Part shown: in pieces, positions 3,524 to 26,822 of the stretch
Position numbering within the stretch: position 1 is the first letter of the stretch
How the letters are laid out: each line of letters begins with the position of its first letter
Origin: a virus
IMG/VR virus record: IMGVR_UViG_3300025873_000024
Coordinates: 1 to 31,433 of that record
DNA length: 31,433 nt
Reading direction: 5' to 3' (one strand)
Program-made: the position numbers and the translations under genes
The notes under the pieces: generated by a model
Told to the model about the DNA's origin: nothing
The model's database searches: none
What the model saw: only the letters and a program-made list of their open reading frames with translations

Positions 3524-6048
3524 TGGGTAACGAATTAAAGAACGTAAAGCGTATAGAGAACGCAGGGACCGCCACTGAAACAGGTGCAACCCTAATAGAA
3601 AAACAGCTTGGCTTTGCCGAGGCTGGTGATAAGATGGTGTATAAAGATGCAGGTGGGTCACTTCACACCTTCTCGCAGGATGGAGATTACACGCCTACGA
3701 AGATCGAGAATGGCACAGCCTCGGTTGAGTGTGCGGCTTCTGCTGACGTGTCAATACTTCCGCCAACAGGCTCGAAGATTAAAGTCACTGACAATGTTGT
3801 AGTGTCTCCTGTAACCGATGACGGAACAAACGGTGTTTACATCACAAACGACACTAGCCCAACAACGCCAAACGGAGGCACGGCCTTATACTTAACGGGT
3901 ACTTCAGCAGACCTAAGAAAGGGCGTTAACGGGAAAGACAGAATAAGCATTACTGACAGCCAAGTAGACATCTACACGGATAATGTACAGCGAATTAGCG
4001 CGGGAAGTAGTGGCTCTTTAGTGTCTGACCCTACTGGCGCAGGAAAGCTAAACTTGTCAAGCGTAGAGTCAAAGATTTCGATAACTGGTGGCGGAGAGAT
4101 TAAGGCAACCACAACCCAATCAGTAGTAGGGCTAACAGCTGGTGGTCCACTTGTAAGTGTAAACTCTTCAAGGGTGCTTGTTGACGCTGGGACATCAAAC
4201 CTAGTTGTAAATGACGACGGAATAATAACAAACACCAACACAGAAGCCCAATACGATGCAGACGGAACCAACACGGCAACGGTTAACAAGGAGATACTTG
4301 AGGCAAAGCTTGCGGGACAGACACATGACTCATTAGCCGCAAAGGGTGTCGCTGGTGCTGGTGTGTCTTTTGGACATGTTAACGATCAAGCTCAAACAAT
4401 TGCAGGGGCCAAGTCTTTTTCTAGTCAAATAACCACTTCTGGAGGCATTGACGGAGATGGTGAGGACATTGTAAACGCCTCAAGTGTTGGGCTAGAAACA
4501 TATGGAGCAAACCTCAATTCGGGAATAGAATCATATAACTGCGGCGTATCTAGTGCTTTCGGTGGCTCAGATGCTGTTGACGTACAACACATTCACGGCA
4601 ATTGCTATTACGACGGGGCGGACTACAGGTTTAAGGCGACTGGATACGCGCAGAGAGAGACATTTTCTGCATTGGCTGGGATACCTAGATTCAACATTGA
4701 CAGGTCAACAGCAAGCGGCAGTGCAGCGGGAGAAATTACATTTGAGTCTTTTTTGCAATTGCAAGACGACGGAGTTCTAACACTCGCACAATCCACAGTA
4801 GCAAATATCAACACAGCAGGAGTTAAAGCGGTAGCAACTAAAGAGTATGTGGACGACTTAGCAATACCATTTATCGAGGTAACGCCAACGGGAGACGATA
4901 AAGGGCTAGTGGTGACAGAGCAGTTCTCAGTTGGAGCCCTTAACGATGGGAGAGAGTCGGTATTTGGTGAGGGGGATTCACACCCTGTGGAATATGCTTT
5001 TCACTGTACAAAGGGAGACACAACAGGAGACACAATAATAAACGCCGTAGACATTGCCTCTATACTCAACTCAGACTCGGGGTCCACTACGGGCCTATTT
5101 GGAGGAACTGCGGTAGGAGATTATATTCTTGTGGGTGCCTCTGCTCAGTTTCAAGGGGTGAAAGTAAAGAGTACAGACTGCGGAGACATCGAGCCTGACA
5201 ATGTAAAGCTGTCTTCTTGGCGCGGTTCGGGCGTTTTCTTTACTGTGAACTTTATGAACACAAATGCAAACTTTCCCTATACTCAATATGGGAACGCCGT
5301 TTGCTCTGCACCTTCGGAACAGTGGCGGTTTGGGTTTGATCCTACTACGCCTTCAACGTGGGCACCTGTAACAATTAATATTAATGGGTCTGATATCACT
5401 AAATACTGGGGGATTTTCGAAATCACATCTACAATTACAACAGATGCAACTATAGAACAAATGAAGATACACACTAATCGAACGAAGATAAACGCAGACG
5501 GAAAGGTTGAGTATTTTGGGCTTGCTCGGTATCCCAGAACTTTATTTTCAGGCTTAAGTAATTATGTGGTAAACGCCCTATATGATCCAGCTAATGAAAC
5601 GGTTGATTATGGATCAGAGTTTGAGGCTAAATACTTAGATAATGAGTTCGCCAACAATGCTATTGATGGTCTTGGATTTACTCAGGGAATTGTATCAGGG
5701 CTTGATACGAGTATCCCCTTGGTATTTTCAATCAGTTATTATGTAAAAGGCACTGGAACGGGGGATATAAAGTTTCACATAGATGCCTACCAAGTTTCTG
5801 ATGGATTCGTGTTTGATGGAACTGCAACCCCAGACGAATACGACCTTATAGATACCGTTTCTGCATCTTCTAACTTAGTAAGAAGAACCGTGAGCATTTT
5901 AATAGATGTGCATAAGATTAAGGACACTGGTGATCAAGTTGTGATTTCAGTAAGAAGAGACGCAACATCAGGAGAGCCAGAAGATACTTTAAACAACAAT
6001 GTAGTACTTGAAAACCTAACTTTAACAGGGTATTTCTGGGGGCCCTAA
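3523..6048 (+). CDS. Tail fibre / receptor-binding protein
   Basis: 841 residues, starting at the ATG that overlaps the upstream stop. The first ~75 residues form a probable attachment domain, followed by long Thr/Gly/Asn/Asp-rich beta-repeat sequence. Residues ~288-300 contain a DQAQTIAGAKSF segment, a pattern common in phage fibre shafts, and VKAVATKEYVDD near residue 430 is a typical fibre-domain junction. The C-terminal ~280 residues look like a different globular, carbohydrate-binding-type domain that could contact the receptor. It is last in the tail operon and converges on the minus-strand lipoprotein gene with a 4-base overlap; I see no clear terminator between them. Confidence 0.75.
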   Translation: MGNELKNVKRIENAGTATETGATLIEKQLGFAEAGDKMVYKDAGGSLHTFSQDGDYTPTKIENGTASVECAASADVSILPPTGSKIKVTDNVVVSPVTDDGTNGVYITNDTSPTTPNGGTALYLTGTSADLRKGVNGKDRISITDSQVDIYTDNVQRISAGSSGSLVSDPTGAGKLNLSSVESKISITGGGEIKATTTQSVVGLTAGGPLVSVNSSRVLVDAGTSNLVVNDDGIITNTNTEAQYDADGTNTATVNKEILEAKLAGQTHDSLAAKGVAGAGVSFGHVNDQAQTIAGAKSFSSQITTSGGIDGDGEDIVNASSVGLETYGANLNSGIESYNCGVSSAFGGSDAVDVQHIHGNCYYDGADYRFKATGYAQRETFSALAGIPRFNIDRSTASGSAAGEITFESFLQLQDDGVLTLAQSTVANINTAGVKAVATKEYVDDLAIPFIEVTPTGDDKGLVVTEQFSVGALNDGRESVFGEGDSHPVEYAFHCTKGDTTGDTIINAVDIASILNSDSGSTTGLFGGTAVGDYILVGASAQFQGVKVKSTDCGDIEPDNVKLSSWRGSGVFFTVNFMNTNANFPYTQYGNAVCSAPSEQWRFGFDPTTPSTWAPVTININGSDITKYWGIFEITSTITTDATIEQMKIHTNRTKINADGKVEYFGLARYPRTLFSGLSNYVVNALYDPANETVDYGSEFEAKYLDNEFANNAIDGLGFTQGIVSGLDTSIPLVFSISYYVKGTGTGDIKFHIDAYQVSDGFVFDGTATPDEYDLIDTVSASSNLVRRTVSILIDVHKIKDTGDQVVISVRRDATSGEPEDTLNNNVVLENLTLTGYFWGP

Positions 6049-6401
6049 AGCTCATAAACCCACCGTTGACTTTCATTACCAAGAGAGTCAACGGTAAACT
6101 CAAAGTATGACATAGGATCTATAATAGTATCAATAGATCTTATGTTGTGCTCAGAGTCCAACACCGACACTATACAGCCATTTACAGGAACAGGGCACAC
6201 AAGAACACTCTCTGTAAAGTTCATGCCCTTGTTTGGCGTGTAGCTCTTGTCTTCATCGAGATCAAGAATGTAAATGTGAACAAGCTCACCAGCTTCTTTA
6301 ACTGGCTTAAGTCCAATTGTTACACTTCCCCCCACTTCTGTAAACTCCACAGTCCCACACCCCACAAACAACACTATCAAAATTAATATTAAGTATCTCA
6401 T
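6045..6401 (-). CDS. Small lipoprotein
   Basis: 118 residues. The N-terminus is Met-Arg-Tyr, a hydrophobic run of Leu/Ile, then LFVGC, a lipobox with the acylated Cys at residue 15. A mature beta-rich domain of about 100 residues follows with no recognised motif. The ATG at 6401 has AAAGG a few bases upstream. It is the last gene of the minus-strand early block, 12 bases after ssb, and converges with the tail fibre gene. Phage lipoproteins often act in superinfection exclusion or as lysogenic conversion factors; that role is only a possibility here. The lipoprotein call itself is well supported. Confidence 0.75.
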   Translation of the reverse strand: MRYLILILIVLFVGCGTVEFTEVGGSVTIGLKPVKEAGELVHIYILDLDEDKSYTPNKGMNFTESVLVCPVPVNGCIVSVLDSEHNIRSIDTIIDPMSYFEFTVDSLGNESQRWVYEL

Positions 6402-6413
6402 TTTTAGCCTTTC

Positions 6414-6983
6414 TTAGAATGGAAGATCGTCGTCTGATTGTTGTTGGTTGTTAAAGTTCTGTGGTTGCTGATACTGTTGGTTTTGGGGCTGGTTCTGGTT
6501 AAACTGTCTTGGCTGTGGTTGTTGTATGAATTGTAGTTGTTGAGGCTGTTGACGCTGCTGTTGTTGCTGTTGCTGATTCTGTCCCTGTTGTTGCTGTTGA
6601 GGTTGCGAAGGTTGCTGGTTGTATTGCCCCTGCTGTTGCTGTCCTTGTCCTGCTGGTTTACTATCAAGAAACTGCATTAACGAAGCAACGATTTCTGTTT
6701 TGTATTTCTTTTGACCGTTGTCGTCCCATGATCGGGTTTTTAACTTGCCTTCGATGTAAACAGAACTTCCTTTTTTGAGATATTGGGCGGCTGTTTCTGC
6801 TAGCTTATTCCATGCAGAGACATTGTGCCACTCTGTATTCTCTTGCTGTTGTCCTTGAACGTCTTTGAAGCGTTCTGTAGTTGCAACTGAGAAACTGCAG
6901 ACTGCTTTCCCTTTATTCGTTCTTTTAAGCTCTGGACCTTGTCCCAGATTTCCAATAACGATTGCTTTGTTTATTGATGCCAT
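6414..6983 (-). CDS. ssb: Single-stranded DNA-binding protein
   Basis: 189 residues from the ATG at 6983. An open frame extends 18 codons further upstream, but that stretch is translated attC sequence, and the ATG at 6983 has an AAAGAG site. Residues 1-110 form the OB fold of bacterial SSB: ASINKAIVIGNLGQGPELK at the start, FSVATTERFKD, TEWHNVSAWNKLAETAAQYLKKG, then YIEGKLKTRSWDDNGQKKY. A long Gln/Asn/Pro-rich linker (~75 residues) follows, ending in the acidic tip DDDLPF that recruits SSB partner proteins. It coats ssDNA during replication and RecT recombination. It lies immediately downstream of an attC site, so a cassette has been placed directly in front of ssb. Confidence 0.95.
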   Translation of the reverse strand: MASINKAIVIGNLGQGPELKRTNKGKAVCSFSVATTERFKDVQGQQQENTEWHNVSAWNKLAETAAQYLKKGSSVYIEGKLKTRSWDDNGQKKYKTEIVASLMQFLDSKPAGQGQQQQGQYNQQPSQPQQQQQGQNQQQQQQQRQQPQQLQFIQQPQPRQFNQNQPQNQQYQQPQNFNNQQQSDDDLPF

Positions 6984-7002
6984 TTTTATCTCTTTCAGTA
7001 GG

Positions 7003-7065
7003 TTACAACCTACGCTTTCATTAGTTCGCTCGCTCAACTCCCGCCAAACGAAGCGACACGTTATA
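7003..7065 (-). other. attC-like integron recombination site (minus-strand copy, before ssb)
   Basis: Read on the minus strand, this begins TATAACG, contains imperfect inverted arms, and ends at a GGTTGTAA core. Bases 7007-7065 are a perfect 59-bp reverse-complement copy of 19242-19300. Identity ends right after the GTT core triplet: here GTAACC follows, in the other copy ATGAATG follows. That is the expected signature if the same attC was joined to two different downstream sequences by integron-type recombination. The TAA in its left R box is the stop codon of the cassette gene. See the findings for tests. Confidence 0.85.
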
Positions 7066-7288
7066 GTAAAATTTCTTCTGCTAATCGTTCAGCAGTTTCT
7101 TTACTTAATCCCCAATTCATTTTCTTTCTGTAGCAATCTTCACAGTTTGCGTTCTTTTTTTCAACGGGTACTTCTTCGCCTTTTTCGTCATCCCACTCCC
7201 AATCTATGCCAGTCGGGTCGCAAGTGTCGCAATAAACACTACTGAATTTTGAAGTAAGCAATTCTACTATTTCACTCTTGTTTTTCAT
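7061..7288 (-). CDS. Small Cys-rich (zinc-ribbon-type) protein carried on a cassette
   Basis: 75 residues from the ATG at 7288, chosen because AAAGAGG lies 6 bases upstream; an alternative ATG at 7309 sits in the attC core. The protein has YCDTCD near residue 19 and NCEDCYRKK near residue 48, two CxxC pairs likely to bind one zinc, followed by an amphipathic helix (NWGLSKETAERLAEEILL). Comparable small CxxC...CxxC-R-K proteins are frequent in phages of Gram-positive and other bacteria, with unknown role. It is flanked on both sides by attC-like sites and its stop codon is inside the downstream one, so the gene and that site together have the form of a mobile cassette. Confidence 0.8.
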   Translation of the reverse strand: MKNKSEIVELLTSKFSSVYCDTCDPTGIDWEWDDEKGEEVPVEKKNANCEDCYRKKMNWGLSKETAERLAEEILL

Positions 7289-7305
7289 ATCAACCTCTTT
7301 CGTTG

Positions 7306-7370
7306 TCATAACCACAGCATTGTCGATGACAATTCGCTTAGGCTCACCGCACAACACGCGAATTGTTATT
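7306..7370 (-). other. attC-like integron recombination site (minus strand, upstream flank of cassette)
   Basis: On the minus strand this reads GAATAAC ... GTTATGA over 65 bases. R boxes AATAAC/GTTAT are complementary, and the inner arms (GTGTTGTGCGGTGAG on one side, ATCGACAATGC on the other) are imperfectly paired as in attC sites. The inner segment GTGCGGTGAG is also present in the plus-strand site at 21686, so both belong to one attC family. The ATG of GTTATGA is in frame with the cassette gene. It follows the stop of a 32-residue membrane peptide by only 2 bases. Confidence 0.82.
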
Positions 7371-7372
7371 CT

Positions 7373-7471
7373 CTACTCTGCCGTAAACCCTGAAACACTT
7401 ATTGCATAGCTACACATAGCTATCATGATTATACCTAGTATTAGAAATACTATTTGCCAACCTGTTTTCAT
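7373..7471 (-). CDS. 32-residue single-pass membrane peptide
   Basis: The ATG at 7471 overlaps the ninG stop (ATGA). The peptide is MKTGWQIVFLILGIIMIAMC followed by a 12-residue polar tail ending FTAE: one membrane helix from about residue 5 to 20. It resembles, in its first residues (MK-GWQI) and hydrophobic core, the start of the 63-residue membrane protein at 24784, which may mean a shared origin. It ends 2 bases before an attC-like site, so it may be the original chromosomal neighbour or part of another cassette. No function is known. Confidence 0.55.
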   Translation of the reverse strand: MKTGWQIVFLILGIIMIAMCSYAISVSGFTAE

Positions 7472-8998: not shown

Positions 8999-9608
8999 GT
9001 TTCTGCAAAGTTTTTTCTATTTCCTCTTGAAACTCTTCTAATCTCTCGAACATTGTGTCGATGTATTCTTGATCTCTGAAGACTCTTTCAATGTATAATC
9101 TTGATGGGCCTTTTACCCTTGGATCAAACGAAATGAAGTCACACCAGTCCGCCTCTGTAAAGTTGATGTTTCCCTGTACTTGTGGCATGTGCTCCTTTGG
9201 CATCCCCTCAAGCACCGTGTTGATATGTATTGCTGAATTGTAAGGACACTTTACCTCTATGCAGTTTCCCGATGGTCTACCGTCAGGAGATCCCCCTATC
9301 ATTGCAAATTCATGCAGAAGAATAAGCCCAGAAGAGAAAACTAAAACCCCGTTCTTTTCTTCATACTCATCAATTGCATAAGGCTCGTTTTCTGTACCCC
9401 ACTCTAAAGCCTTTCCTGAAATCTCCTTTTGCTCACCTGTGAGAATTTCGCTTATTATTTCGTTGCGATAAGTGAGGGCTGTTTTCCCCCACTTCTCACT
9501 TTTCGCTCTTCCCTTTGTCATTACATCCTTGAACCGTGAAGCCGTAATTTTCCCGAGTCTTGCATTAAACCATTCTGGCGTTCCCTGCTCTGCTTTTACT
9601 TTGTACAT
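8991..9608 (-). CDS. YqaJ-type 5'-3' exonuclease (RecE/lambda Exo-like)
   Basis: 205 residues from the ATG at 9608 (GGTGG upstream; a longer frame begins at 9623). N-terminus EQGTPEWFNARLGKITASRF is the hallmark of YqaJ viral recombinases. It is followed by GKALEWGTENEPYAIDEYE, the catalytic IGGSPDG ... CIEVKCPY (PD-(D/E)xK-type Asp and Glu-x-Lys), then MPQVQGNINFTEADWCDFIS. It resects double-strand ends to make 3' tails for the RecT annealer encoded just upstream, whose end it overlaps by 13 bases. All active-site residues are present. Confidence 0.93.
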   Translation of the reverse strand: MYKVKAEQGTPEWFNARLGKITASRFKDVMTKGRAKSEKWGKTALTYRNEIISEILTGEQKEISGKALEWGTENEPYAIDEYEEKNGVLVFSSGLILLHEFAMIGGSPDGRPSGNCIEVKCPYNSAIHINTVLEGMPKEHMPQVQGNINFTEADWCDFISFDPRVKGPSRLYIERVFRDQEYIDTMFERLEEFQEEIEKTLQKLK

Positions 9609-10363
9609 TGTGCCACCGCCCACGATTTAACTTTATCGTATCTCTTTACTGGTATATTCTCAAGGCTTCCAAACTCTTTTAAAAGGGCCTCTTTTACCTC
9701 TTCATTGACTTCACAAAGCTCGTTGATTTCTACGTATTGTTGATCTGAGATATACTCTGTAAAATCTGTGGTATTAATCGGGCTCACATTTCCGTGTTGA
9801 TCTGGATCTGTAAAATCACTTTCACACTGCACCCCAGAAATGCCAAAGGCTTTTTTAAGGGCGTGAGCTTCTGCAACTTTCTTTATCATCTCTGCGGGGT
9901 GAGTCTTCCATGCACTTTGCCCTTTATTGTACGGCGCAAACTCTACCAGTTCGACAGTAGGCTCTCCACCCTTACGAAATACAACACAGTAAGCTCCTGC
10001 TATTGGCCCACGATCTCCAAAACTAACATTGTGTCTTATTGTATTGTTCGCTACATCAATTTGAAAATCATCATTCTTGCAAACTTCGCACGATCTCAAG
10101 CCGTCAAATAATGGATTCTCCTGAGCCTTCCGAAGAAAGCCGTCTCTACCAGCAAAAACAAGAAGTCTCCCCCCGCTTTTATAACACCAGATTTCTCTAT
10201 TAAAAGGATTCATTCCAACGGATCTACACACGTTCAAAAAGTACCCGAGCTCTGTGGTGCTCGTTCCCTTTGCAACTGTATCTTGCACGACCATAATTTG
10301 ATCTGCATTATACTCACCGTTTACCATTTCGCTTATTCTGTCAAATACTGTTATCTCGCTCAT
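9596..10363 (-). CDS. bet: RecT/Bet single-strand annealing protein
   Basis: 255 residues from the ATG at 10363, selected for the AGAGGAAGAG site; 11 further codons exist upstream. Recognisable Bet/RecT segments: TELGYFLNVCRSVGMNPFNRE, IWCYKSGGRLLVFAGRDGFL, the central CEVCKNDDF region, GAYCVVFRKG, and KTHPAEMIKKVAEAHALKKA with FGISGVQ. It anneals complementary single strands and works with the adjacent YqaJ exonuclease and with SSB and NinG in the same operon. The C-terminal ~65 residues are the usual variable helical tail. Confidence 0.93.
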   Translation of the reverse strand: MSEITVFDRISEMVNGEYNADQIMVVQDTVAKGTSTTELGYFLNVCRSVGMNPFNREIWCYKSGGRLLVFAGRDGFLRKAQENPLFDGLRSCEVCKNDDFQIDVANNTIRHNVSFGDRGPIAGAYCVVFRKGGEPTVELVEFAPYNKGQSAWKTHPAEMIKKVAEAHALKKAFGISGVQCESDFTDPDQHGNVSPINTTDFTEYISDQQYVEINELCEVNEEVKEALLKEFGSLENIPVKRYDKVKSWAVAQCTK

Positions 10364-10377
10364 CTCTTCCTCTTTCC

Positions 10378-10596
10378 TTAATCTACTTCTACACAATTAT
10401 CGTGCACCGTGCACATAAACTCTATTCCATTTATCTCTACTTCAAACTGATTCTCGTTAGTTGCAAAGTGTTCTATCAACAATGCGCACTGGCACTCTAA
10501 ATATTTAAGAGTTATGAAACTATTACAAGCTTCATCAAAATCAAGCTTAATTTCATCAATCAAATTCTCGTAGATTCTATGCTGTACTAGTTCCAT
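10378..10596 (-). CDS. Hypothetical 72-residue protein
   Basis: ATG at 10596 with AAGGGGTG upstream; a GTG at 10602 is a less likely start. Sequence starts MELVQHRIYENLIDEIKLDF and ends in a beta-rich part with CTVHDNCVEVD. It is the first gene behind promoter B and precedes recT by 14 bases, so it leads the recombination operon. It could be a small accessory factor of the recombination module. No family recognised. Confidence 0.7.
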   Translation of the reverse strand: MELVQHRIYENLIDEIKLDFDEACNSFITLKYLECQCALLIEHFATNENQFEVEINGIEFMCTVHDNCVEVD

Positions 10597-18212: not shown

Positions 18213-18274
18213 CTATTTCCTACTAACCACAACAGAGAATAACAGAAGAGACAGCACAGTTGAGTTTTATGTAG

Positions 18275-18339
18275 GAATAACAACTGCGTGTTGTGCAAGT
18301 GAGGCACGAACGCAGACATCAACAACGCACTGGTTATGG
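18275..18339 (+). other. attC site 1
   Basis: GAATAAC at the left and GTTATGG at the right (65 bases). Arms CTGCGTGTTGTG and ATCAACAACGCAC pair imperfectly, leaving unpaired bases on one side as attC sites do when folded. The loop part has GAGGCACGA, shared with most other sites of the array. Confidence 0.85.
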
Positions 18340-18358: not shown

Positions 18359-18781
18359 ATGAAAATGGAAGTAATCAAAAAAGAAGAAGTTGAAATCAAA
18401 TTCTTACAAGTATCTGCTGGTGTACGATACTGGGAGAATGGAACAGTTGACGGAGTAGAGGACACTGAAGGCGAATTAATGCCCTGCATTGAAGGCGAAA
18501 ACTGGTCTCCTTTAATTGAGCTTGAAACAGGCAAGATTGTGAACTGGAAACAGGGAACTAAGGCAAGCACATATTACAAAGTTTGTGATTGCTGTGTGAT
18601 TAGTTTTCTTGATGAAGAAAAGGTTTCTCACAAAATTATTGAAGGTTATGTTCCCGATATTCTTTCGCCTAAAGAAGAAGGTTACGGCGATTATGTAATT
18701 ATGGATATTGATGAAAATGGAATGATTCAAAATTGGAAGCCTTCACTTGATTGGCTTGAAGATTATCAGGATTTTTCTTAG
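18359..18781 (+). CDS. Cassette gene: 140-residue protein of a widespread unknown family
   Basis: ATG at 18359. The segment FLQVSAGVRYWENGTVDGVE, then MPCIEGENWSPLIELETGKI, then VNWKQGTKASTYYKVCD, then EEGYGDYVIMDIDENGMIQN with a final WL-rich helix. I recall a similar GVRYW-D-VDG...GYGDYIIM family of short hypothetical proteins across bacteria, without an assigned function. It is soluble and acidic. The TAG stop touches the start of attC site 2. Occurrence as a single-gene cassette fits mobile spread of this family. Confidence 0.75.
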   Translation: MKMEVIKKEEVEIKFLQVSAGVRYWENGTVDGVEDTEGELMPCIEGENWSPLIELETGKIVNWKQGTKASTYYKVCDCCVISFLDEEKVSHKIIEGYVPDILSPKEEGYGDYVIMDIDENGMIQNWKPSLDWLEDYQDFS

Positions 18782-18845
18782 GATAACGCTTTTGTCGTGT
18801 GCTGAGGAGGCACGACGAAAGACATCACGAACAAACTGGTTATGA
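18781..18845 (+). other. attC site 2
   Basis: GGATAAC ... GTTATGA, 65 bases. Left arm GCTTTTGTCGTGTGC, right arm GACATCACGAACAAAC, loop with GAGGCACGA. Outer boxes ATAAC/GTTAT are complementary. Confidence 0.85.
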
Positions 18846-18865: not shown

Positions 18866-19246
18866 ATGAAGTACGAAATCAAATACAAAGAGCTTACAGA
18901 ATATCTTGAAACCTTGAAATACAGAGACTTTTGGGATGAGAGTTCAGAAAACTATATGCAAAAAGCATACACAACTAAAGAACTTGAGTTCTCGAAAAAC
19001 AAAGACAGATTCGAAGGTGAACAGTTTATTGATTACGGTATGCCATACCTAGTTGATGTATTGGGAAATGACCTTTCTTTAGTTTGGAGCACTAAGAAAA
19101 AGCACAAATTGAAAACTTGTAGTGGTGTACGATCACTGAGTTTGAAATTTGACAGAACTTTAATTAAAGATTGTCGAACAGTTTTAGGCTCTTGTGTTAA
19201 TGGGTATTGGGCTATTCCAAAAAGATTTATTATCGAATCAATATAA
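18866..19246 (+). CDS. Cassette gene: hypothetical 126-residue protein
   Basis: ATG at 18866 with AGGA upstream. Helical first part (MKYEIKYKELTEYLETLKYR), a central YGMPYLVDVLGNDLSLVW, then a basic Ser/Thr-rich end (SGVRSLSLKFDRTLIKDC). No recognised motif. Its TAA stop lies inside the TATAAC box of attC site 3, so gene and site form one compact cassette. The same attC, in an exact 59-bp copy, serves another gene at 7.06-7.29 kb. Confidence 0.7.
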   Translation: MKYEIKYKELTEYLETLKYRDFWDESSENYMQKAYTTKELEFSKNKDRFEGEQFIDYGMPYLVDVLGNDLSLVWSTKKKHKLKTCSGVRSLSLKFDRTLIKDCRTVLGSCVNGYWAIPKRFIIESI

Positions 19247-19304
19247 CGTGTCGCTTCGTTTGGCGGGAGTTGAGCGAGCGAACTAATGAAAGCGTAGGTT
19301 ATGA
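19242..19304 (+). other. attC site 3 (identical core copy at 7007-7065)
   Basis: TATAACG ... GTTATGA. Arms GTGTCGCTTCGTTTGG and AACTAATGAAAGCGTAGG. Bases 19242-19300 equal the reverse complement of 7007-7065 without mismatch. The loop GCGGGAGTTGAGCGAGCGAA differs from the GAGG-ACGA loops of the other sites, marking it as a distinct attC subtype carried at both loci. Confidence 0.88.
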
Positions 19305-19390
19305 ATGACTGTGATAAAACGGTCAAAATGAAGATGGAACTTGCTGACTTAAACAATGAACTTTGGATAATCGAAGAACGGAAAAAATAA
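19301..19390 (+). CDS. Cassette gene: 29-residue peptide starting in the attC core
   Basis: Its ATG is the ATG of GTTATGA in attC site 3; it encodes MNDCDKTVKMKMELADLNNE plus a 9-residue charged end, and stops in TAATG with the next gene. It may be a leader peptide that couples ribosomes into the 115-residue gene. Short, so only moderate confidence. Confidence 0.45.
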   Translation: MNDCDKTVKMKMELADLNNELWIIEERKK

Positions 19391-19737
19391 TGTGCAAATA
19401 CTGTGATTTACGAGGAAAAACATGGAACGGATCTGATCCGAAGTGTGGGTTCCCTTTAGGAGACACTTTTACCCCCGAAAACTGGAACTGTGCTACACTC
19501 AATCTCCTTCGAGGACTTTCCCATAAAAATGGAGTTAAAACTTATGGTGAAGACAATGGGTCAATCTCTATTCTAGCACTCCCAACAAGTTGGAATTTTG
19601 ACGAAAGAGGCTACTTAGTTATGAACTGGTACAAAGATCGAGGTTGTACCGACAAGGCTAAGATAATTAATGAAGATGAAGAGTTTGAACTCACTGAAGA
19701 GCTCGCAAACGCGATTATTGAACATTATACAAAGTAG
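19390..19737 (+). CDS. Cassette gene: 115-residue CxxC protein of an unknown family
   Basis: ATG at 19390 overlapping the preceding stop (TAATG). MCKYCDLRGKTWNGSDPKCG, then FPLGDTFTPENWNCATLNLL, then GSISILALPTSWNF and GYLVMNWYKDRGCTDKAKII with an acidic helix at the end. CxxC near the N-terminus plus two more Cys could hold a metal. I have a memory of similar CxYC-L-GSDP-C-FP proteins in many genomes, with no known function. Good compositional support for a real protein. Confidence 0.75.
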   Translation: MCKYCDLRGKTWNGSDPKCGFPLGDTFTPENWNCATLNLLRGLSHKNGVKTYGEDNGSISILALPTSWNFDERGYLVMNWYKDRGCTDKAKIINEDEEFELTEELANAIIEHYTK

Positions 19738-19742
19738 GAGTT

Positions 19743-19967
19743 ATGCGTAAATTAATCAGTAACACAAAAGAGGCAAAAGAGTGGATGAAGAAAAACCCTG
19801 AAAGAATACTTTACTCTTATAAAGAAAAAATTAATCTAGTCTGTATGGGGCCAGCAAGGGTATAGGCACCACTAAGTATCGAAGGGTTTAAAGTGCTAAC
19901 AGGTGTTAAAACCGATGGTACTCCTATTTGGAAGCCTTTAACAGAATTTGAAATAGAAATCAACTGA
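19743..19967 (+). pseudogene. Gene interrupted by an in-frame TAG (74 codons plus stop)
   Basis: ATG at 19743 with AGGAG upstream. The first 40 codons (MRKLISNTKEAKEWMKKNPE ... CMGPARV) end at a TAG (19863-19865), but the frame stays open for 33 more codons of normal-looking protein (APLSIEGFKVLTGVKTDG ... TEFEIEIN) to a TGA. Both halves look like one small protein. Since another cassette gene here ends at a TAG directly before its attC, TAG works as stop in this genome. A nonsense mutation is the simplest reading; partial readthrough or sequencing error are alternatives. Confidence 0.6.
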
Positions 19968-19991: not shown

Positions 19992-20150
19992 GTGAGGAGA
20001 TTATTAATGCTGATTTTGTCTGCTGTATTTGCATCTATTGTTTTATTTGTAATAAACATTGTGATGTGGTTACTCCACTGGCCATGTTTTGGACAAACAA
20101 CATGGATCATGATATTTGTATATGATTATGCAGTGCCGAAATATAAGTAA
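19992..20150 (+). CDS. Cassette gene: small membrane protein
   Basis: 52 residues from a GTG at 19992 with GGAGG 5 bases upstream; an ATG at 20007 is the alternative. MRRLLMLILSAVFASIVLFV, then INIVMWLLHWPCFGQTTWIM, then IFVYDYAVPKYK: one long or two short membrane helices with a positive N-terminus. Stop codon TAA is inside the AAGTAAC box of attC site 4. It probably shares one cassette with the two or three short genes before it, since no attC lies between them. Confidence 0.6.
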   Translation: MRRLLMLILSAVFASIVLFVINIVMWLLHWPCFGQTTWIMIFVYDYAVPKYK

Positions 20151-20209
20151 CACCGAAATGGTGTGCGAATGAGGAACGAATGAAGTCATCACCAATTGAA
20201 CGGTTATGA
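20145..20209 (+). other. attC site 4
   Basis: AAGTAAC ... GTTATGA, 65 bases. Arms CCGAAATGGTGTGC and GTCATCACCAATTGAACGG, loop with GAGGAACGA. Its GTTATG supplies the most upstream possible ATG of the cytosine methyltransferase gene. Confidence 0.85.
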
Positions 20210-21087
20210 CTCAAACAGAAAGAGCGAAAATGAAAGTATTGAGCTTATTTGATGGTATCAGTTGTGGCAAAGTAGCACTTGAAAAAAATGGCATCCAAGT
20301 TGAAAAGTATTACTCCGCTGAAATTGATAAAACAGCAATGGGAATCAGCGAACAAAACCACGATGGTATTGTGAGACTTGGAAGTGTTGAAGATTGGGAG
20401 AACTGGGATATAGATTTCAGTGAGATAGATTTAGTTCTTGCAGGAAGCCCCTGCCAAGGTTTTAGCTCAAGCGGTAAAGGGTTAAATTTTGAAGACCCAC
20501 GAAGCAAATTGTTTTTTACATTTGTAGACATTCTCGAACACATTAAAGTAGTTAATAGTGATGTAAAATTTCTTCTTGAAAATGTGAAGATGAAAAAAGA
20601 GTGGACTGAAATAATTGATGAAAAACTAGGTGTTGTATATGAGGAAATTAACAGCAAATACTTCTCCGCTCAAAACAGAGTTCGTTTTTACTGGTGTAAT
20701 TGGGAGATACCAAAATACGAAGACCTTGGTATAATGCTTGAAGATATTGTTGAAGATGATTACATACACTCAGCGGCGAAAAGAACAAGACCAATAGTTG
20801 ACGAGGGAAGACGAAAAAGCCTTTGCTTGGAAGTTCACGGGATTGGTAAAAGTATGTGCTTGGTTACTGTTAATTTGAACAACCTACTTAGCCCTTTGCC
20901 AAGAGGAAGATACAAGGACTGTGGTGAAAATGATTACCCTTACAGAGTTATGACACCAAGAGAAATGGAAAAACTACAAACAATGCCTGAAAACTATGTG
21001 GGAGACATTTCAAGCAACAAGGCGGCTAAAGTTCTTGGTAATGGTTGGAATGTTGATACTATCGCACACATATTAACAGGAATGTAA
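20206..21087 (+). CDS. Cassette gene: C5-cytosine DNA methyltransferase
   Basis: 293 residues from the ATG in the attC core; a second ATG at 20230 (MKVLSLFDG) is equally possible. Ordered motifs: I VLSLFDGISCGK (residues 11-22), IV GSPCQGFS with catalytic Cys83, VI ENV (125-127), VIII QNRVR (156-160). A target-recognition region follows at about 175-245, then IX RVMTPREMEKLQTMPENY (247-264) and X GNGWNVDTIAHIL (278-290). Complete and presumably active. It transfers a methyl group from S-adenosylmethionine to cytosine; without a partner nuclease here it most likely shields phage DNA from restriction. Specificity cannot be read. Confidence 0.93.
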   Translation: MTQTERAKMKVLSLFDGISCGKVALEKNGIQVEKYYSAEIDKTAMGISEQNHDGIVRLGSVEDWENWDIDFSEIDLVLAGSPCQGFSSSGKGLNFEDPRSKLFFTFVDILEHIKVVNSDVKFLLENVKMKKEWTEIIDEKLGVVYEEINSKYFSAQNRVRFYWCNWEIPKYEDLGIMLEDIVEDDYIHSAAKRTRPIVDEGRRKSLCLEVHGIGKSMCLVTVNLNNLLSPLPRGRYKDCGENDYPYRVMTPREMEKLQTMPENYVGDISSNKAAKVLGNGWNVDTIAHILTGM

Positions 21088-21094
21088 ATCAAGC

Positions 21095-21159
21095 TTATAA
21101 CAATTTTGTGGTTTGCAAGCGAGGAACGAGTGCAGACACAACCAACAAACAGGTTATGA
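21095..21159 (+). other. attC site 5
   Basis: TTATAAC ... GTTATGA, 65 bases. Arms TTTTGTGGTTTGC and CACAACCAACAAACAGG, loop with GAGGAACGA. Confidence 0.85.
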
Positions 21160-21180
21160 CCTGTGTGGAAAGAGAGAAGC

Positions 21181-21462
21181 ATGATTAAATGGTACAATTG
21201 GAACTTTCCTGCAAAATTACTCCCTGAGTGGGTAAAGGAGGAACGTAGCAGAAATTCAAAGGCAATCATCAAGCTAAGCAACCAAGTAAAACTTCTTGAA
21301 AGTGCAAACTGCCCACGGTGTTCAATGCATGAGGCACCAACAACGGCGGAATATTGCCCGGTGTGTGATGCAAAACAAGAGTATGCTCCAAATCCATATT
21401 ATATACATATTTGCACTAACTGCAAAGAGAAGTACACTCAGTCAGATTTAATTAGGAAGTAA
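21181..21462 (+). CDS. Cassette gene: 93-residue zinc-ribbon protein
   Basis: ATG at 21181 with GAGAGA upstream; the frame is open back to a GTG at 21163. MIKWYNWNFPAKLLPEWVKE, then a helix with IIKLSNQVKLLES, then NCPRCSMHEAPTT, YCPVCDAKQEY and ICTNCKEKYTQSDLIR. Three CxxC knuckles, probably one or two zinc ribbons, behind a helical coiled-coil segment. Function unknown; nucleic-acid or protein binding is likely. Its stop touches the short attC-like element that follows. Confidence 0.75.
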   Translation: MIKWYNWNFPAKLLPEWVKEERSRNSKAIIKLSNQVKLLESANCPRCSMHEAPTTAEYCPVCDAKQEYAPNPYYIHICTNCKEKYTQSDLIRK

Positions 21463-21488
21463 TAACCACTTGAATGTAGTGGTTATGG
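21460..21488 (+). other. attC site 6, unusually short (29 bases)
   Basis: TAATAACCACT, 7-base loop, AGTGGTTATGG: a perfect 9-bp stem ATAACCACT/AGTGGTTAT including both core boxes. It lacks the inner arms, bulged bases and variable loop of the other sites. It separates two genes just as a normal site would. It may be a truncated attC or a minimal working one. Confidence 0.55.
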
Positions 21489-21499
21489 AAAGAGGGAGT

Positions 21500-21691
21500 A
21501 TGAAAAATATAATTAGAATTTTAAAAGGCAAACTGCACTTCAACTACTGCCATTGGCAAAAGTGGAATCATTTAGGTTTTAAAAAACTTTGGAGTGGAAA
21601 GTTGATTTACTTCGGTTTTTCAAAGTTTAGTGTTCAATTGGATATTAGAAAAAACTGGGTTGATGACTTGGTAACAGGTAAAGTGAAATAA
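21500..21691 (+). CDS. Cassette gene: hypothetical 63-residue protein
   Basis: ATG at 21500 with GAGGGAG upstream; an in-frame ATG lies in the core of attC site 6 at 21485. MKNIIRILKGKLHFNYCHWQ, then KWNHLGFKKLWSGKLIYFGF, then FSVQLDIRKNWVDDLVTGKV. Basic and aromatic, with a probable all-beta fold. TAA stop is inside AAATAAC of attC site 7. No recognised family. Confidence 0.65.
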   Translation: MKNIIRILKGKLHFNYCHWQKWNHLGFKKLWSGKLIYFGFSKFSVQLDIRKNWVDDLVTGKVK

Positions 21692-21747
21692 CACCTGTGT
21701 GTGGTGCGGTGAGGTACGAACAGTCATCCACAACACATAGGTTATGA
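21686..21747 (+). other. attC site 7
   Basis: AAATAAC ... GTTATGA, 62 bases. Arms CCTGTGTGTGGTG and ATCCACAACACATAGG pair well with one-sided extra bases; loop with GAGGTACGA. Confidence 0.88.
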
Positions 21748-21769
21748 CAAACGGTAGAAAGGAACGAGA

Positions 21770-22402
21770 ATGATTGATTTTAGAAATATGTGCAATATGG
21801 AATTGATGAAAGAGTTTGAGGATAATCATTTTGAACTTGCGATTGTTGATCCGCCTTACGGAATAGATTTGGCAAATATGAATATGGGGGCTGGGAAATC
21901 AGCAAAAGCATCAAAAATTGAAAATAGAAAGTGGAAAGCCAAAGACTGGGATAAAAACACACCGAGTGCAGAATACTTTGAAGAACTTATGAGAGTTTCA
22001 AAACATCAAATTATTTGGGGAGGAAACTATTTCGAATTGCCACCTTGCTACGGTTATGTAATTTGGGATAAGCAAATACCAGAGGGGCTATCTTTTGCAG
22101 ATTGTGAAATGGCGTGGACAAGTATAAAGCGTGCTGCAAAGATTTTTAGCTATAGTGCATACAAAGATAAAAAATTTAAGTTTCACCCAACCCAAAAACC
22201 AATAAGACTATACACTTGGCTCTTGGCAAACTATGCAAAAGAGGGAGACAAAATTTTAGATACGCATGTCGGCTCTGCAAGTTCTTTGATTGCTTGCCAC
22301 CAATTAGGCTATGATGTAACAGGCTGTGAATTGGATGAAGAGTATTACAAATTAGCACAACAACGAATTAAAGAGGAAACGGCTCAATTGAGCTTATTCT
22401 AA
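21770..22402 (+). CDS. Cassette gene: adenine-type (N6/N4, beta-class) DNA methyltransferase
   Basis: 210 residues. ATG at 21770 with AAAGGAAC upstream. Catalytic motif IV VDPPYG at residues 26-31 comes first, and motif I (ILDTHVGSASSLIACHQLGY, about residues 171-190) near the end after HPTQKP: the IV-then-I order of beta-class amino-methyltransferases. DTHVGSAS replaces the usual D-F-GSGT, a mild deviation. Short, with little room for a target-recognition domain. Methylates adenine or cytosine amino groups on DNA; second methyltransferase in the array, with no nuclease partner, so anti-restriction is the likely role. Confidence 0.9.
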   Translation: MIDFRNMCNMELMKEFEDNHFELAIVDPPYGIDLANMNMGAGKSAKASKIENRKWKAKDWDKNTPSAEYFEELMRVSKHQIIWGGNYFELPPCYGYVIWDKQIPEGLSFADCEMAWTSIKRAAKIFSYSAYKDKKFKFHPTQKPIRLYTWLLANYAKEGDKILDTHVGSASSLIACHQLGYDVTGCELDEEYYKLAQQRIKEETAQLSLF

Positions 22403-22451
22403 ATAACACCTCGGTGGATTGCCGAAGGTCAAACCAACCGAAAGGTTATGA
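22401..22451 (+). other. attC site 8 (51 bases)
   Basis: AAATAAC ... GTTATGA. Arms CCTCGGTGGATTG and CAAACCAACCGAAAGG, with a short loop GCCGAAGGT in place of the GAGG-ACGA loop. The ATG in GTTATG is in frame with the next gene. Confidence 0.8.
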
Positions 22452-22672
22452 TGATGAGTAGATACACGGAAGAACAACTTAAGTTACTAGAAGTGCAAGC
22501 GAAATCCGAAACATCAAAATGGTATTATGTGACTTTGTACCACTACCAAAATTTGAAAAAAGATGAAGTTGAATACTTCAAAGATTGGGTTGAGTGGGAT
22601 GGTGAGAAGTGGCTGTATGAAGAGTATGTAGATTGCTATGTGTGCTTCATCCACAAGAAAAAAGACATATAA
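22448..22672 (+). CDS. Cassette gene: hypothetical 74-residue protein
   Basis: Starts in the attC core with three possible ATGs in a row (22448, 22451, 22454). MMMSRYTEEQLKLLEVQAKS, then a beta-like YYVTLYHYQNLKKDEVEYFK, then DWVEWDGEKWLYEEYVDCYV. Strongly aromatic and acidic, ending in a basic tail. Stop codon TAA lies in the ATATAAC box of attC site 9. Not a recognised family. Confidence 0.65.
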   Translation: MMMSRYTEEQLKLLEVQAKSETSKWYYVTLYHYQNLKKDEVEYFKDWVEWDGEKWLYEEYVDCYVCFIHKKKDI

Positions 22673-22730
22673 CGCTCGCATGGTGTGCAGTGAGTGAAAC
22701 GAGCAGTCACCACTCATGCAGAAGTTATGA
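22667..22730 (+). other. attC site 9, last of the array
   Basis: ATATAAC ... GTTATGA, 64 bases. Arms GCTCGCATGGTGTGC and CAGTCACCACTCATGCAG. Beyond it there is no further site and the phage's own gene at 22802 follows, so it marks the right end of the cassette array. Confidence 0.85.
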
Positions 22731-22801
22731 ACAAAAACAAGAAAAGCCCCAGTAATTAATGTATATTGTAGTACAGCAAAAACTTGTATAAAAGAGGCAG
22801 T

Positions 22802-23110
22802 ATGAACGAACAAATTCAAAAAGTAATAGAGGGTCTTATTGTGACCCTTGAAGAGAAAAAGGAACTCTTAGACAATAGCACTTCCTTTCGTGCAAGAGCG
22901 ATTGCAGAGGTTAAGGGTAAGATTGTAGAAGCCCTTCGAGACTCTCTATGGAGTGAAGTAAGAGCACTTTCAGACTGGCTTGATACCTATGATACAAAAG
23001 ATGATGTTGAAGCAATTGTTAGCGATACTCTTGAGTCGGTAGATTTAACTATCAACGACAGCCAAGAGGCAGAAATGCTTGACACTGGTGAAATAATTGT
23101 AACACAATAG
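22802..23110 (+). CDS. Hypothetical 102-residue helical protein, first gene right of the array
   Basis: ATG at 22802 with AAAGAGG upstream. MNEQIQKVIEGLIVTLEEKK, then a helical middle with IVEALRDSLWSEVRALSDWL, then VEAIVSDTLESVDLTINDSQ and an acidic end. All helical, rich in Glu and Leu, likely oligomeric. It marks the return to phage-type sequence with the AAAGAGG site. No family recognised. Confidence 0.7.
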   Translation: MNEQIQKVIEGLIVTLEEKKELLDNSTSFRARAIAEVKGKIVEALRDSLWSEVRALSDWLDTYDTKDDVEAIVSDTLESVDLTINDSQEAEMLDTGEIIVTQ

Positions 23111-24058: not shown

Positions 24059-24061
24059 TCG

Positions 24062-24136
24062 GTGGCAGTAGCTCAAGCGTATTGGTAGAGCAGAATAGGC
24101 GTATTCAGGTTGTTGGTTCGAATCCAACCTGCTACC
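24062..24136 (+). tRNA. tRNA-like gene with a 4-base anticodon loop (no anticodon assigned)
   Basis: Acceptor stem GTGGCAG/CTGCTAC (24062-24068 with 24129-24135; one G-T pair), T8-A9. D arm GCTC/GAGC (24071-24074 with 24088-24091) and its loop has the GG pair. T arm GTTGG-TTCGAAT-CCAAC (24112-24128) is perfect, and the variable loop has 5 bases. The anticodon arm GAATA/TATTC (24093-24097 with 24102-24106) closes a loop of only GGCG instead of seven bases, so no codon can be read in the usual way. The sequence after it reads CCA with no discriminator base, or CA if C24136 is the discriminator. A tRNA minus three bases; a decoy, a pseudogene or a processing signal are possible. Confidence 0.7.
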
Positions 24137-24161
24137 CATTAGGAACAAAGAGAGGCAAGAG

Positions 24162-25111: not shown

Positions 25112-25648
25112 ATGGCACGGGTAGCGTGGGAGCCAACAGAGAAACAAATAGATACAATAAGAGAAATGTCTACCCTTGGTGCGTCTGATTCTAAAATAGC
25201 AAAAGCATTAAACATACATAGGAATACATTCTCAAAGTATAAAAATGCACAAGATGAAAATGTGCAAAATGTGCAACCTATAAAAAAGGCTCTTGAAGAG
25301 GGTAGTGAAGAGCGCCGTGTCTCTGTTCTTGAAGAAGTAGAAGACGCAATGAGGAAGACAGCTTTAGGGTACTTTATAGAAGAGGAAGAAACATTCTATA
25401 AGTGTGTGCAAATAGAAGACGGTGAAGGCAATGTAATAAAAGAGTATGACACACCAGAGAGGAAAGTTAAAAGGCGTAAGTTTGTTAATCCTAACGCTAC
25501 TCTCCAAATGTTTCTAGGAGTAAACCTCTCAGAAGGCAAATATCAATCTATCAACAAGGTAGAGGTGAAGCAAGAGAACAACAATGCCGATGTATACAAA
25601 GTAGAATTTCAAGACGAGAATCTAAATGGCACTACACCCAGCCTATAA
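25112..25648 (+). CDS. terS: Small terminase subunit
   Basis: 178 residues, ATG at 25112 with AGGGGG just upstream. N-terminal helix-turn-helix (EKQIDTIREMSTLGASDSKI, then KALNIHRNTFSKYKNAQDEN) recognises DNA, followed by a coiled oligomerisation part (RRVSVLEEVEDAMRKTALGY) and a C-terminal beta part with NPNATLQMFLGVNLSEGKYQ. The overall HTH-coil-NPNAT pattern is typical of TerS proteins that choose the packaging site. Overlaps terL by 23 bases. Confidence 0.85.
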   Translation: MARVAWEPTEKQIDTIREMSTLGASDSKIAKALNIHRNTFSKYKNAQDENVQNVQPIKKALEEGSEERRVSVLEEVEDAMRKTALGYFIEEEETFYKCVQIEDGEGNVIKEYDTPERKVKRRKFVNPNATLQMFLGVNLSEGKYQSINKVEVKQENNNADVYKVEFQDENLNGTTPSL

Positions 25649-26822
25649 ACACTGGTTCATGAGAACGCCAAACGGCAGGATAGGGATAACTGATAAATAC
25701 AGTTATCTATTTTCGTATGGTGGGCGTGGTGGAGGAAAGACCGACTTTCTTTGTGAAGCGTTGCCATTGATAGGAACACAAGAGCCAGTAAAAATACTTT
25801 GTGTTCGTGAGTTTCAAAATTCTATTGATGACTCAGTGATAGCAGGACTTCTTGAAAAGATGGATGAGCACTTCCCAAACTTCTACAGAAGAGTAGGAAA
25901 TGAGATAAGGGGAAAGAATGGCACACTCTTCTCTTTTAGGGGGATAGGTAGAAACACACTCTCTCTTAAATCTCTCAAGGGTTATAAGTATTGCTGGGTT
26001 GAAGAAGGTGATGCAATAAGTGCCTTTTCTTGGGATATATTAGACCCTACTATAAGACTAGCTGATTCGGTGATGATAATCTCAATGAATAGAAACAATG
26101 AAGACTCTGTATTGGACAGGCTGTTTATTCAGAACGAACCGCCACCACGAACAAACATAGTAAAAGTAAACTATACAGATAATCCTTTTCCTATTCCTAA
26201 GCTCATAGAGAAGGCTGAACATTGCAGAAAGGCAAACTTTAAAGCTTATCAACACATATGGCTTGGTGAGCTTAATAAGATAGATGAGGCCGAAGTCTTT
26301 CATGGTAAATGGAGAACAGAGAAGTTTGAGACGCCAGAGGACGCAATATTTTATCATGGTGTTGACTGGGGTTTTGGTGCTCACCCTACAGCTATTGTTA
26401 GGTGTTACATTAAAGAGAATACTCTCTACATAGATAAGGCTGGCTATTATTGGAGATCAGACCTTGAGGACCTCCCCGAGTTATTTATAAAGGACGTTCC
26501 AACATCTAAAACATGGCGAATAATAGCAGATTCGGCAAATCCTGCGGAAATAAGGTATATTAGGAATAAAGGCTTCGATGTTTGGGGTGTTAAAAAGGGG
26601 ACTATAGAGTCGGGGATCAGGTATCTTCGCTCTTATGATTGTATAGTAATACATGAAGACCTTAAGCACCTAATTGCAGAGGCCAAAAACTACAAATACA
26701 AATTAGATCCAAAAACGGGGGATGTGCTCCCAATTTTGATTAAAGAGCATGATCACGGCTGGGACGCCATAAGATACGCCCTTAGTCGATTAATTGCCAA
26801 AGGAGCACAGAGTGACTACTAG
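25626..26822 (+). CDS. terL: Large terminase subunit (ATPase and nuclease)
   Basis: 398 residues. Walker A FSYGGRGGGKTDFL (about residues 28-41) follows KYSYL. VKILCVREFQNSIDDSV is the family's Q-motif-like block, and Walker B is YKYCWVEEGDAI with the catalytic Glu. A coupling motif lies near MIISMNRNNEDS. The nuclease domain follows with HGVDWGFGAHPTAIVRCY, RIIADSANPAEIRYIRNKGF and HDHGWDAIRYALSRLI, giving the Asp residues of the RNase-H fold. Matches PBSX/Terminase_3 family in length. It packages DNA into proheads. The portal gene starts inside its end. Confidence 0.95.
   Translation: MALHPAYKHWFMRTPNGRIGITDKYSYLFSYGGRGGGKTDFLCEALPLIGTQEPVKILCVREFQNSIDDSVIAGLLEKMDEHFPNFYRRVGNEIRGKNGTLFSFRGIGRNTLSLKSLKGYKYCWVEEGDAISAFSWDILDPTIRLADSVMIISMNRNNEDSVLDRLFIQNEPPPRTNIVKVNYTDNPFPIPKLIEKAEHCRKANFKAYQHIWLGELNKIDEAEVFHGKWRTEKFETPEDAIFYHGVDWGFGAHPTAIVRCYIKENTLYIDKAGYYWRSDLEDLPELFIKDVPTSKTWRIIADSANPAEIRYIRNKGFDVWGVKKGTIESGIRYLRSYDCIVIHEDLKHLIAEAKNYKYKLDPKTGDVLPILIKEHDHGWDAIRYALSRLIAKGAQSDY

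Follow-up and report, generated by a model that had tools for sequence, protein, structure and literature searches.

Integron-like cassette arrays with two DNA methyltransferases as cargo in a tailed phage, and sites that appear to precede the genes they travel with

The tailed-phage genome analyzed here, IMG/VR record IMGVR_UViG_3300025873_000024, of which all 31,433 bases were studied (the window), holds two integron-like cassette arrays, one per strand, at 18.3-22.7 kb (+) and 7.0-7.4 kb (-), and two DNA methyltransferases are carried in separate cassettes of the former. We find it reasonably likely, taking the account as a whole, that these arrays are worked by a recombinase supplied in trans, that an attC-like site and the open reading frame (ORF) downstream of it form the mobile unit, and that the methyltransferases are protective cargo. 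The evidence comes from the window itself, from a sister phage (G002), and from other viral records with the same class of site. An earlier note on this DNA had already placed the two enzymes in separate cassettes, and Pfam and TIGRFAM models (PF00145, TIGR00675, PF01555) bear this out, with a third cassette between them:

20147-21096 (+), cassette of the C5 methyltransferase
20206..21087 (+), C5-cytosine DNA methyltransferase, complete, 293 residues (PF00145, E = 2.3e-31; TIGR00675 over its cut-off)
21163..21691 (+), two small ORFs, the cassette between the methyltransferases (DZR-like match at 0.01, below cut-off)
21688-22402 (+), cassette of the N6/N4 methyltransferase
21770..22402 (+), N6/N4 amino DNA methyltransferase, 210 residues (PF01555, E = 1.4e-16; PADLOC MTase_II, 3e-45)

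The C5 enzyme scores 105 bits against TIGR00675 (cut-off 100.65) and has, by eye, what we take to be motifs I (LFDGISCG), IV (PCQ), VI (ENV) and VIII (QNR) and a C-terminal GNG. In the second enzyme DPPY lies ahead of DTHVGSAS, presumably the beta order of motifs; such a motif I is unusual, and because a relative in array record G016 has DTMVGSAS, it looks like a family trait and not damage. Matches to the C5 and N6/N4 enzymes were found in 541 and 941 viral records, respectively, none of them at 60% identity or above, and the best segments of the relatives are at most 55% identical for the former and at most 73% for the latter, an identical fragment aside. The same note had seen no endonuclease gene, and indeed a restriction endonuclease is absent from Pfam and PADLOC scans of the 43 other ORFs of the window (for Pfam, among the 25 families listed of 28).

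The cassettes are delimited by attC-like sites, hairpins of about 60 nt that start with ATAAC and mostly end with GTTATGA. Those of the window are given here with their scores under R1, a covariance model described below:

18277..18339 (+), first site of the plus-strand array, ends in GTTATGG; ORF 18359-18781 next (65.3 bits)
18783..18845 (+), site; ORF 18866-19246 next (60.2 bits)
19243..19304 (+), site of cassette 19241-19745, relocated in G002 (44.0 bits)
20147..20209 (+), site ahead of the C5 methyltransferase (58.6 bits)
21097..21159 (+), site 3' of the C5 methyltransferase and 5' of ORF 21163-21462 (60.3 bits)
21688..21747 (+), site ahead of the N6/N4 methyltransferase (59.4 bits)
22403..22451 (+), short site 3' of the N6/N4 methyltransferase and 5' of ORF 22448-22672 (50.0 bits)
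22669..22730 (+), site 5' of ORF 22784-23110 (48.1 bits)
7306..7369 (-), site at the inversion breakpoint relative to G002 (44.7 bits)
7003..7064 (-), degenerate site ahead of the SSB gene (26.3 bits, E = 2.2e-4)

The degenerate site at 7003-7064 is about 93% complementary to 19242-19311. A site grammar, drawn up after the sites had been seen, finds 8 sites in the window against a mean of 0.11 and a maximum of 2 in 100 dinucleotide shuffles, so that the cassette boundaries are not due to chance. Further array records were brought in by two pattern scans of viral contigs, and a stem-score pre-filter, which favors pairing and not compensatory change, dropped 7 of 76 sites. The alignment took 64 of the 69 sites collected (9 of the 64 being the window's own), and R1 was built from it. 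At E <= 0.01 this model finds 113 sites in 16 records, the window accounting for 10 of them and G008 for 14; at E <= 1 it finds none in 150 other loci (1.6 Mb). As a separate observation, the two small ORFs between the methyltransferases are parted by a 27-nt mini-hairpin (window 21461-21487) that has the two boxes (AATAACCAC...GTGGTTATG) but lacks the internal part, and may be a collapsed site.

Over the 64 aligned sites the fold comprises a 5-bp box helix and an 8-bp stem with an unpaired spacer between them, and 96.6% of cells are paired. Cells in which both partners changed number 94, against 22.5 in shuffles, and collapse when the partners are slid by 1-3 columns; the fold is thus supported by covariation. 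An extrahelical A is present in 62 of the 64 sites, its place at column 60 being fixed by the covariation at columns 14-62, and a second, inner unpaired base is seen in 45. These sites hence share with attC the palindrome of inverse boxes, with TAAC and GTTATG in 64/64 (an invariance to be read knowing that ATAAC/GTTATG belonged to the search patterns) and a stem whose sequence varies with compensatory change, as well as extrahelical bases and an unpaired central spacer.

In a canonical integron cassette, attC sits 3' of its ORF, exchange occurs at G^TTRRRY, and the extrahelical bases are in the R''-L'' (5', coding-strand) arm. The canonical arrangement, in which an upstream ORF and its site are shared and the similarity stops there, was found in 0 pairs in our alignments over the 16 records (a manual count based on 44 directed rows: 16, 15, 7 and 6). 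A site and its downstream ORF, on the other hand, are shared in 8 pairs, corresponding to about 6 independent cases (the G005/G016/G017 trio is one cassette), and an ORF is shared without the site behind it in 10. Crossovers fall at the 5' ATAAC box in 18 pairs. Among 15 pairs of homologous ORFs, identity of the 5' site clearly exceeds that of the 3' site in 4 and the reverse is seen with a clear margin in none, a weak signal that we do not rely on. A crude aligner assigns the extra bases of 43 of the 64 phage sites to the 3' arm of the coding strand, whereas for all 14 sites of the control integron of Lentisphaera marina, which was verified by its IntI (361 bits, cut-off 265), it assigns them to the 5' arm. 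Given the linkage of sites to the downstream ORF and the 3' arm as the usual place of the extra bases, these are not canonical cassettes, and their polarity appears, as judged from sequence comparison, to be reversed, with the site in front of its gene. According to Bouvier 2009 (PMC2727003), the extrahelical bases of attC are in the R''-L'' arm and recombination is in R'; inverting these bases and the spacer together shifts recombination to R''; and the box that recombines is the one whose arm carries no extrahelical bases. Applied to the phage sites, this rule predicts recombination at ATAAC, which is also where breakpoints are most frequent.

These counts also bear on whether we are looking at an ordinary phage CALIN (a cluster of attC sites without an integron integrase) of canonical polarity, acquired from a bacterial integron, where each attC belongs to the upstream ORF. 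The general layout of ORF, site and ORF would be the same, and methyltransferase-bearing phage CALINs have been published, with 5 of 6 tested sites recombining with IntI1 (PMC9892861). Such an origin is nonetheless improbable, as it has to face the 0 alignments with a shared upstream ORF and site against 8 pairs with a downstream ORF, the extra bases in the arm opposite to that of a verified integron, the lack of any array of this class in 84,980 species genomes scanned by pattern, and the lack of R1 matches in the CALIN phages TJE1, P12002L, H101 (1-50 kb) and MW202573.

A second alternative dispenses with a site-specific recombinase altogether: the phage's own annealing of the RecE/RecT type, or illegitimate recombination combined with selection, might join genes at the short boxes they share, and the hairpin would be an element of the 5' untranslated region or an RNA processing element. 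The window does encode a RecE-like exonuclease, RecT and NinG, phage breakpoints are often at gene ends, and a 5' untranslated element would likewise stay with its downstream ORF and, as RNA, covary. Microhomology should, however, prefer the longer invariant GTTATGA over ATAAC, which is contrary to the 18 pairs at the 5' box against 4 at the 3' box, and breaks inside the 60-nt sites, to be expected under annealing, are seen in 3 pairs. The paired inverse boxes, unpaired spacer and extrahelical bases resemble attC, and the window has no Rfam match at E <= 1, so that the hairpins are not accounted for by any described RNA family. We therefore regard this alternative, too, as having little probability.

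Exchange could be followed directly against G002 (37,244 b), whose terminase is 100% identical to that of the window over 81 residues (the overlap) and which spans the stretch between the window's two ends. The earlier note had suggested that the methyltransferases might be exchangeable, and had proposed checking whether related phages carry different ones. G002 is indeed without both window enzymes and carries a third instead (341 residues, PF01555, 6e-28), intact there and reduced in the window to a 3' stretch. Two features of the window are concerned in this exchange:

18228..18287 (+), remnant of the third methyltransferase, matching its 3' end and reaching as far as ATAAC in site 18277 (96.7% over 60 nt)
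19363..19737 (+), ORF of the relocated cassette, 124 residues

The latter belongs to cassette 19241-19745 (site 19243 and its ORF), which in G002 has changed both array and strand, at 98.8% identity over 505 nt. The replication block is also inverted in G002, an 11-kb inversion with one breakpoint inside the AATAAC of site 7306-7369 (alignments 4230-7369 and 7364-7471), and site 22669 with its downstream ORF 22784-23110 is common to both phages while the upstream ORF differs. From the swap, the relocation and the inversion, which have breakpoints at ATAAC, it follows that the cargo does exchange. A 213-residue protein with cysteine pairs and histidines and no Pfam match is encoded ahead of the third methyltransferase in G002 (L106:3190-3831, -); it may be a restriction partner or a homing endonuclease.

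Regarding the recombinase, an intI gene, as a complete integron would have, is found in neither the window nor G002. Three of the array records do encode a tyrosine recombinase:

L180:1354-2538 (-), tyrosine recombinase of G008
L181:943-2118 (+), tyrosine recombinase of G010
L182:1354-2532 (-), tyrosine recombinase of G017

These proteins of about 392 residues are 36-39% identical (two comparisons) and have array sites on both sides, a position that suggests a link to the sites; they may be the cassette mover or simply a lysogeny integrase. As IntI they were rejected, since TIGR02249 has a cut-off of 265 bits and they score 36, 44 and 30; they are of phage type. A search of viral data with their alignment returned the three and four distant proteins (22-24%), a result that says little about spread because the search patterns came from the three themselves. 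The pattern scan of species genomes, which sees GAGGNACGA-centered sites only, found no array of this class and had 3 matches, two of them chance-like and one the canonical integron of Lentisphaera marina. R1 found nothing on those three genomes, where 150 of the 556 to 1355 candidates from a first look were scored in each. A bacterial source is therefore not in sight and, among the data scanned, the site class is found in viral records only; a leader pattern, GGTTATGAnnAAACTTTA, matched just 2 viral stretches. Together with the reversed polarity and the non-IntI recombinase candidate of about 392 residues in 3 of the 16 records, such a distribution raises the idea of a phage-owned cassette system apart from bacterial integrons, the recombinase being borrowed at co-infection by phages without the gene. 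We consider this unlikely on present evidence; if true, unrelated phages would share a pool of small genes, including interchangeable methyltransferases.

The content of the arrays was assessed on 85 of the 88 intervals between neighboring sites (median 371 nt). All 85 contain an ORF of at least 40 residues; its stop codon runs into the next ATAAC in 46 and lies within 25 nt of ATAAC in 26 more. Methyltransferases account for 5 of the 85 cassette ORFs (4 PF01555, 1 PF00145), or 3 of 77 outside the window, and are the commonest assigned function; most of the other ORFs have no Pfam match, and 16 Pfam families occur among the 85. Over whole array records, PF01555 is present in 5/16 and PF00145 in 3/16: the methyltransferases of G017, G007 and G002 are in or beside the array region, not between two neighboring R1 sites, and that of G006 comes after its single site. 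No cognate endonuclease beside a methyltransferase, as in a restriction-modification system, was found among the window ORFs and the cassette ORFs (for PADLOC on the latter, among the 25 families listed of 127), and restriction partners in cassettes elsewhere, which the earlier note said would count against its idea, are likewise missing from the 16 Pfam families of the 85. The proposal that the array is an anti-defense store proved too narrow: as methyltransferases are just 5 of the 85, it is a general exchange region and not a dedicated store. No evidence was gained for the suggestion that the uncharacterized neighbors serve in defense or anti-defense, the PADLOC matches being weak (HEC-08 at 0.0024; mad1 at 0.00042 for one of the 43 window ORFs).

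Orphan phage methyltransferases are usually read as protection against host restriction. That those described here are instead neutral passengers or regulators, common phage genes that landed in an exchange region, is an idea we take seriously while thinking it somewhat unlikely. Relatives are common in phages outside arrays, with R1 sites at 0 of 67 C5-homologue loci (0 of 71 loci in that scan) and 0 of 79 N6/N4-homologue loci, from which it follows that the methyltransferases are not tied to this site class; they are a small share of the cassette ORFs, and the sister phage does without both. Nevertheless, arrays repeatedly carry methyltransferases that are unrelated to one another, and the sister phage has a different type in place of none at all, which fits a host-dependent benefit.

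The account that we prefer can be put as follows. The enzymes, the sites and their fold, the three changes relative to G002 and the link between site and downstream ORF are observed, and it is the recombinase, the strand, the exact cut point and the protective function that we infer. A cassette would consist of a folded site (ATAAC, spacer, covarying stem with the extrahelical A, loop, GTTATGA) with one ORF or a few behind it. A tyrosine recombinase acting in trans, either a host integron integrase or the enzyme of another phage present in the cell, would work at ATAA^C in a single folded strand (the coding strand most likely), and would excise, insert, move and invert units made of a site and its downstream ORF. 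The methyltransferases would be orphan modification cargo, most likely marking the phage DNA and shielding it from host restriction enzymes. Several observations weigh against this account. These sites have no known recombinase, and PF00589 was found in neither the window nor G002. Full R boxes (RYYYAAC/GTTRRRY) are not present: the last four letters of GTTATGA are not RRRY, and the 5' box is conserved as ATAAC only. Some pairs break at the 3' box (4) or inside a site (3), and the crude aligner places more extra bases in the 5' arm in 12 of the 64 phage sites and the same number in both arms in 9. In the window and in G002 alike, the relocated cassette stops at a bare GTTATG lacking a hairpin (window 19738-19745), and the two sequences diverge from there; site 21688-21747 is identical in G002 but its neighbors differ on both sides; and selection could be responsible for part of the junctions at gene ends. 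In spite of its departure from two canonical features, polarity and full R boxes, the integron-like array probably works like integron cassettes.

Single-gene swaps in phages without an obvious transposon or integrase are usually ascribed to relaxed homologous recombination. Here, several phages share single-gene units with folded sites and with crossovers that are mostly one-sided, and between the two sister phages the exchange can be followed base by base. If confirmed, this would provide, for phage mosaicism, a site-specific mechanism that can be tested, and a trade route for modification genes; with reversed polarity, cassette capture would also no longer be bound by the integron-promoter rule, a point that bears on the evolution of attC orientation.

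The remainder of the window is organized as follows:

25626-26822 (+), terminase
7.4-17.4 kb (-), replication block: RecE-like exonuclease, RecT, DnaC-like loader, NinG
6414..7037 (-), SSB gene, final unit of the minus-strand array (PF00436, 9.2e-39 among window ORFs)

The portal, head morphogenesis and capsid genes are on the plus strand, like the terminase, which is 40% identical to that of array phage G005 (L113). At 9596-10396 the window has RecT, beside the RecE-like exonuclease, where G002 has another protein without a Pfam match (L106:11145-11828); this may be a swap of annealing proteins. ARAGORN found no tRNA in the window, and neither it nor Rfam made a call at 24060-24140, a tRNA-like stretch with a GGTTCGAATCCAACC arm.

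Among known systems, phage CALINs come closest. Seventeen have been described in phages, with five methyltransferases in their cassettes, for which an anti-restriction role was suggested, and Polaribacter phage P12002L has a CALIN with two methyltransferases (Qi 2023, PMC9892861). The finding as first stated is therefore a new instance of a known thing: a cassette array without an integrase, with hairpin sites and orphan methyltransferase cargo. A CALIN, as called by IntegronFinder or HattCI, has at least two clustered attC sites and no integrase; the R1 model gives 10 sites here. The terminase of CALIN phage MW202573 is also a distant relative of the window's (36.6%). Unlike the CALINs as described there, the arrays studied here have a site class that gives R1 no match in the four CALIN phages searched, sites tied to the downstream ORF, and exchange, relocation and inversion between sister phages. 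The chromosomal integron of Lentisphaera marina (L135 1-8000, G020) is similar in its small ORFs between hairpins, TAAC/GTTA boxes, unpaired spacer and extrahelical bases, but it has a full-length IntI (contig 2), extra bases in the 5' arm, and no R1 match. T4-type phages have mobile regulatory cassettes (promoter-stem-loops), which resemble the present arrays in their stem-loops between small phage genes and in gene shuffling, whereas paired boxes of recombination type and base-precise junctions at one box are seen here. Reversed polarity and a virus-only site class were not found in our searches of the open-licence literature. What is new here is the linkage of sites to the downstream ORF, crossovers concentrated at the 5' ATAAC box, and an extrahelical base in the arm opposite to that of a verified integron.

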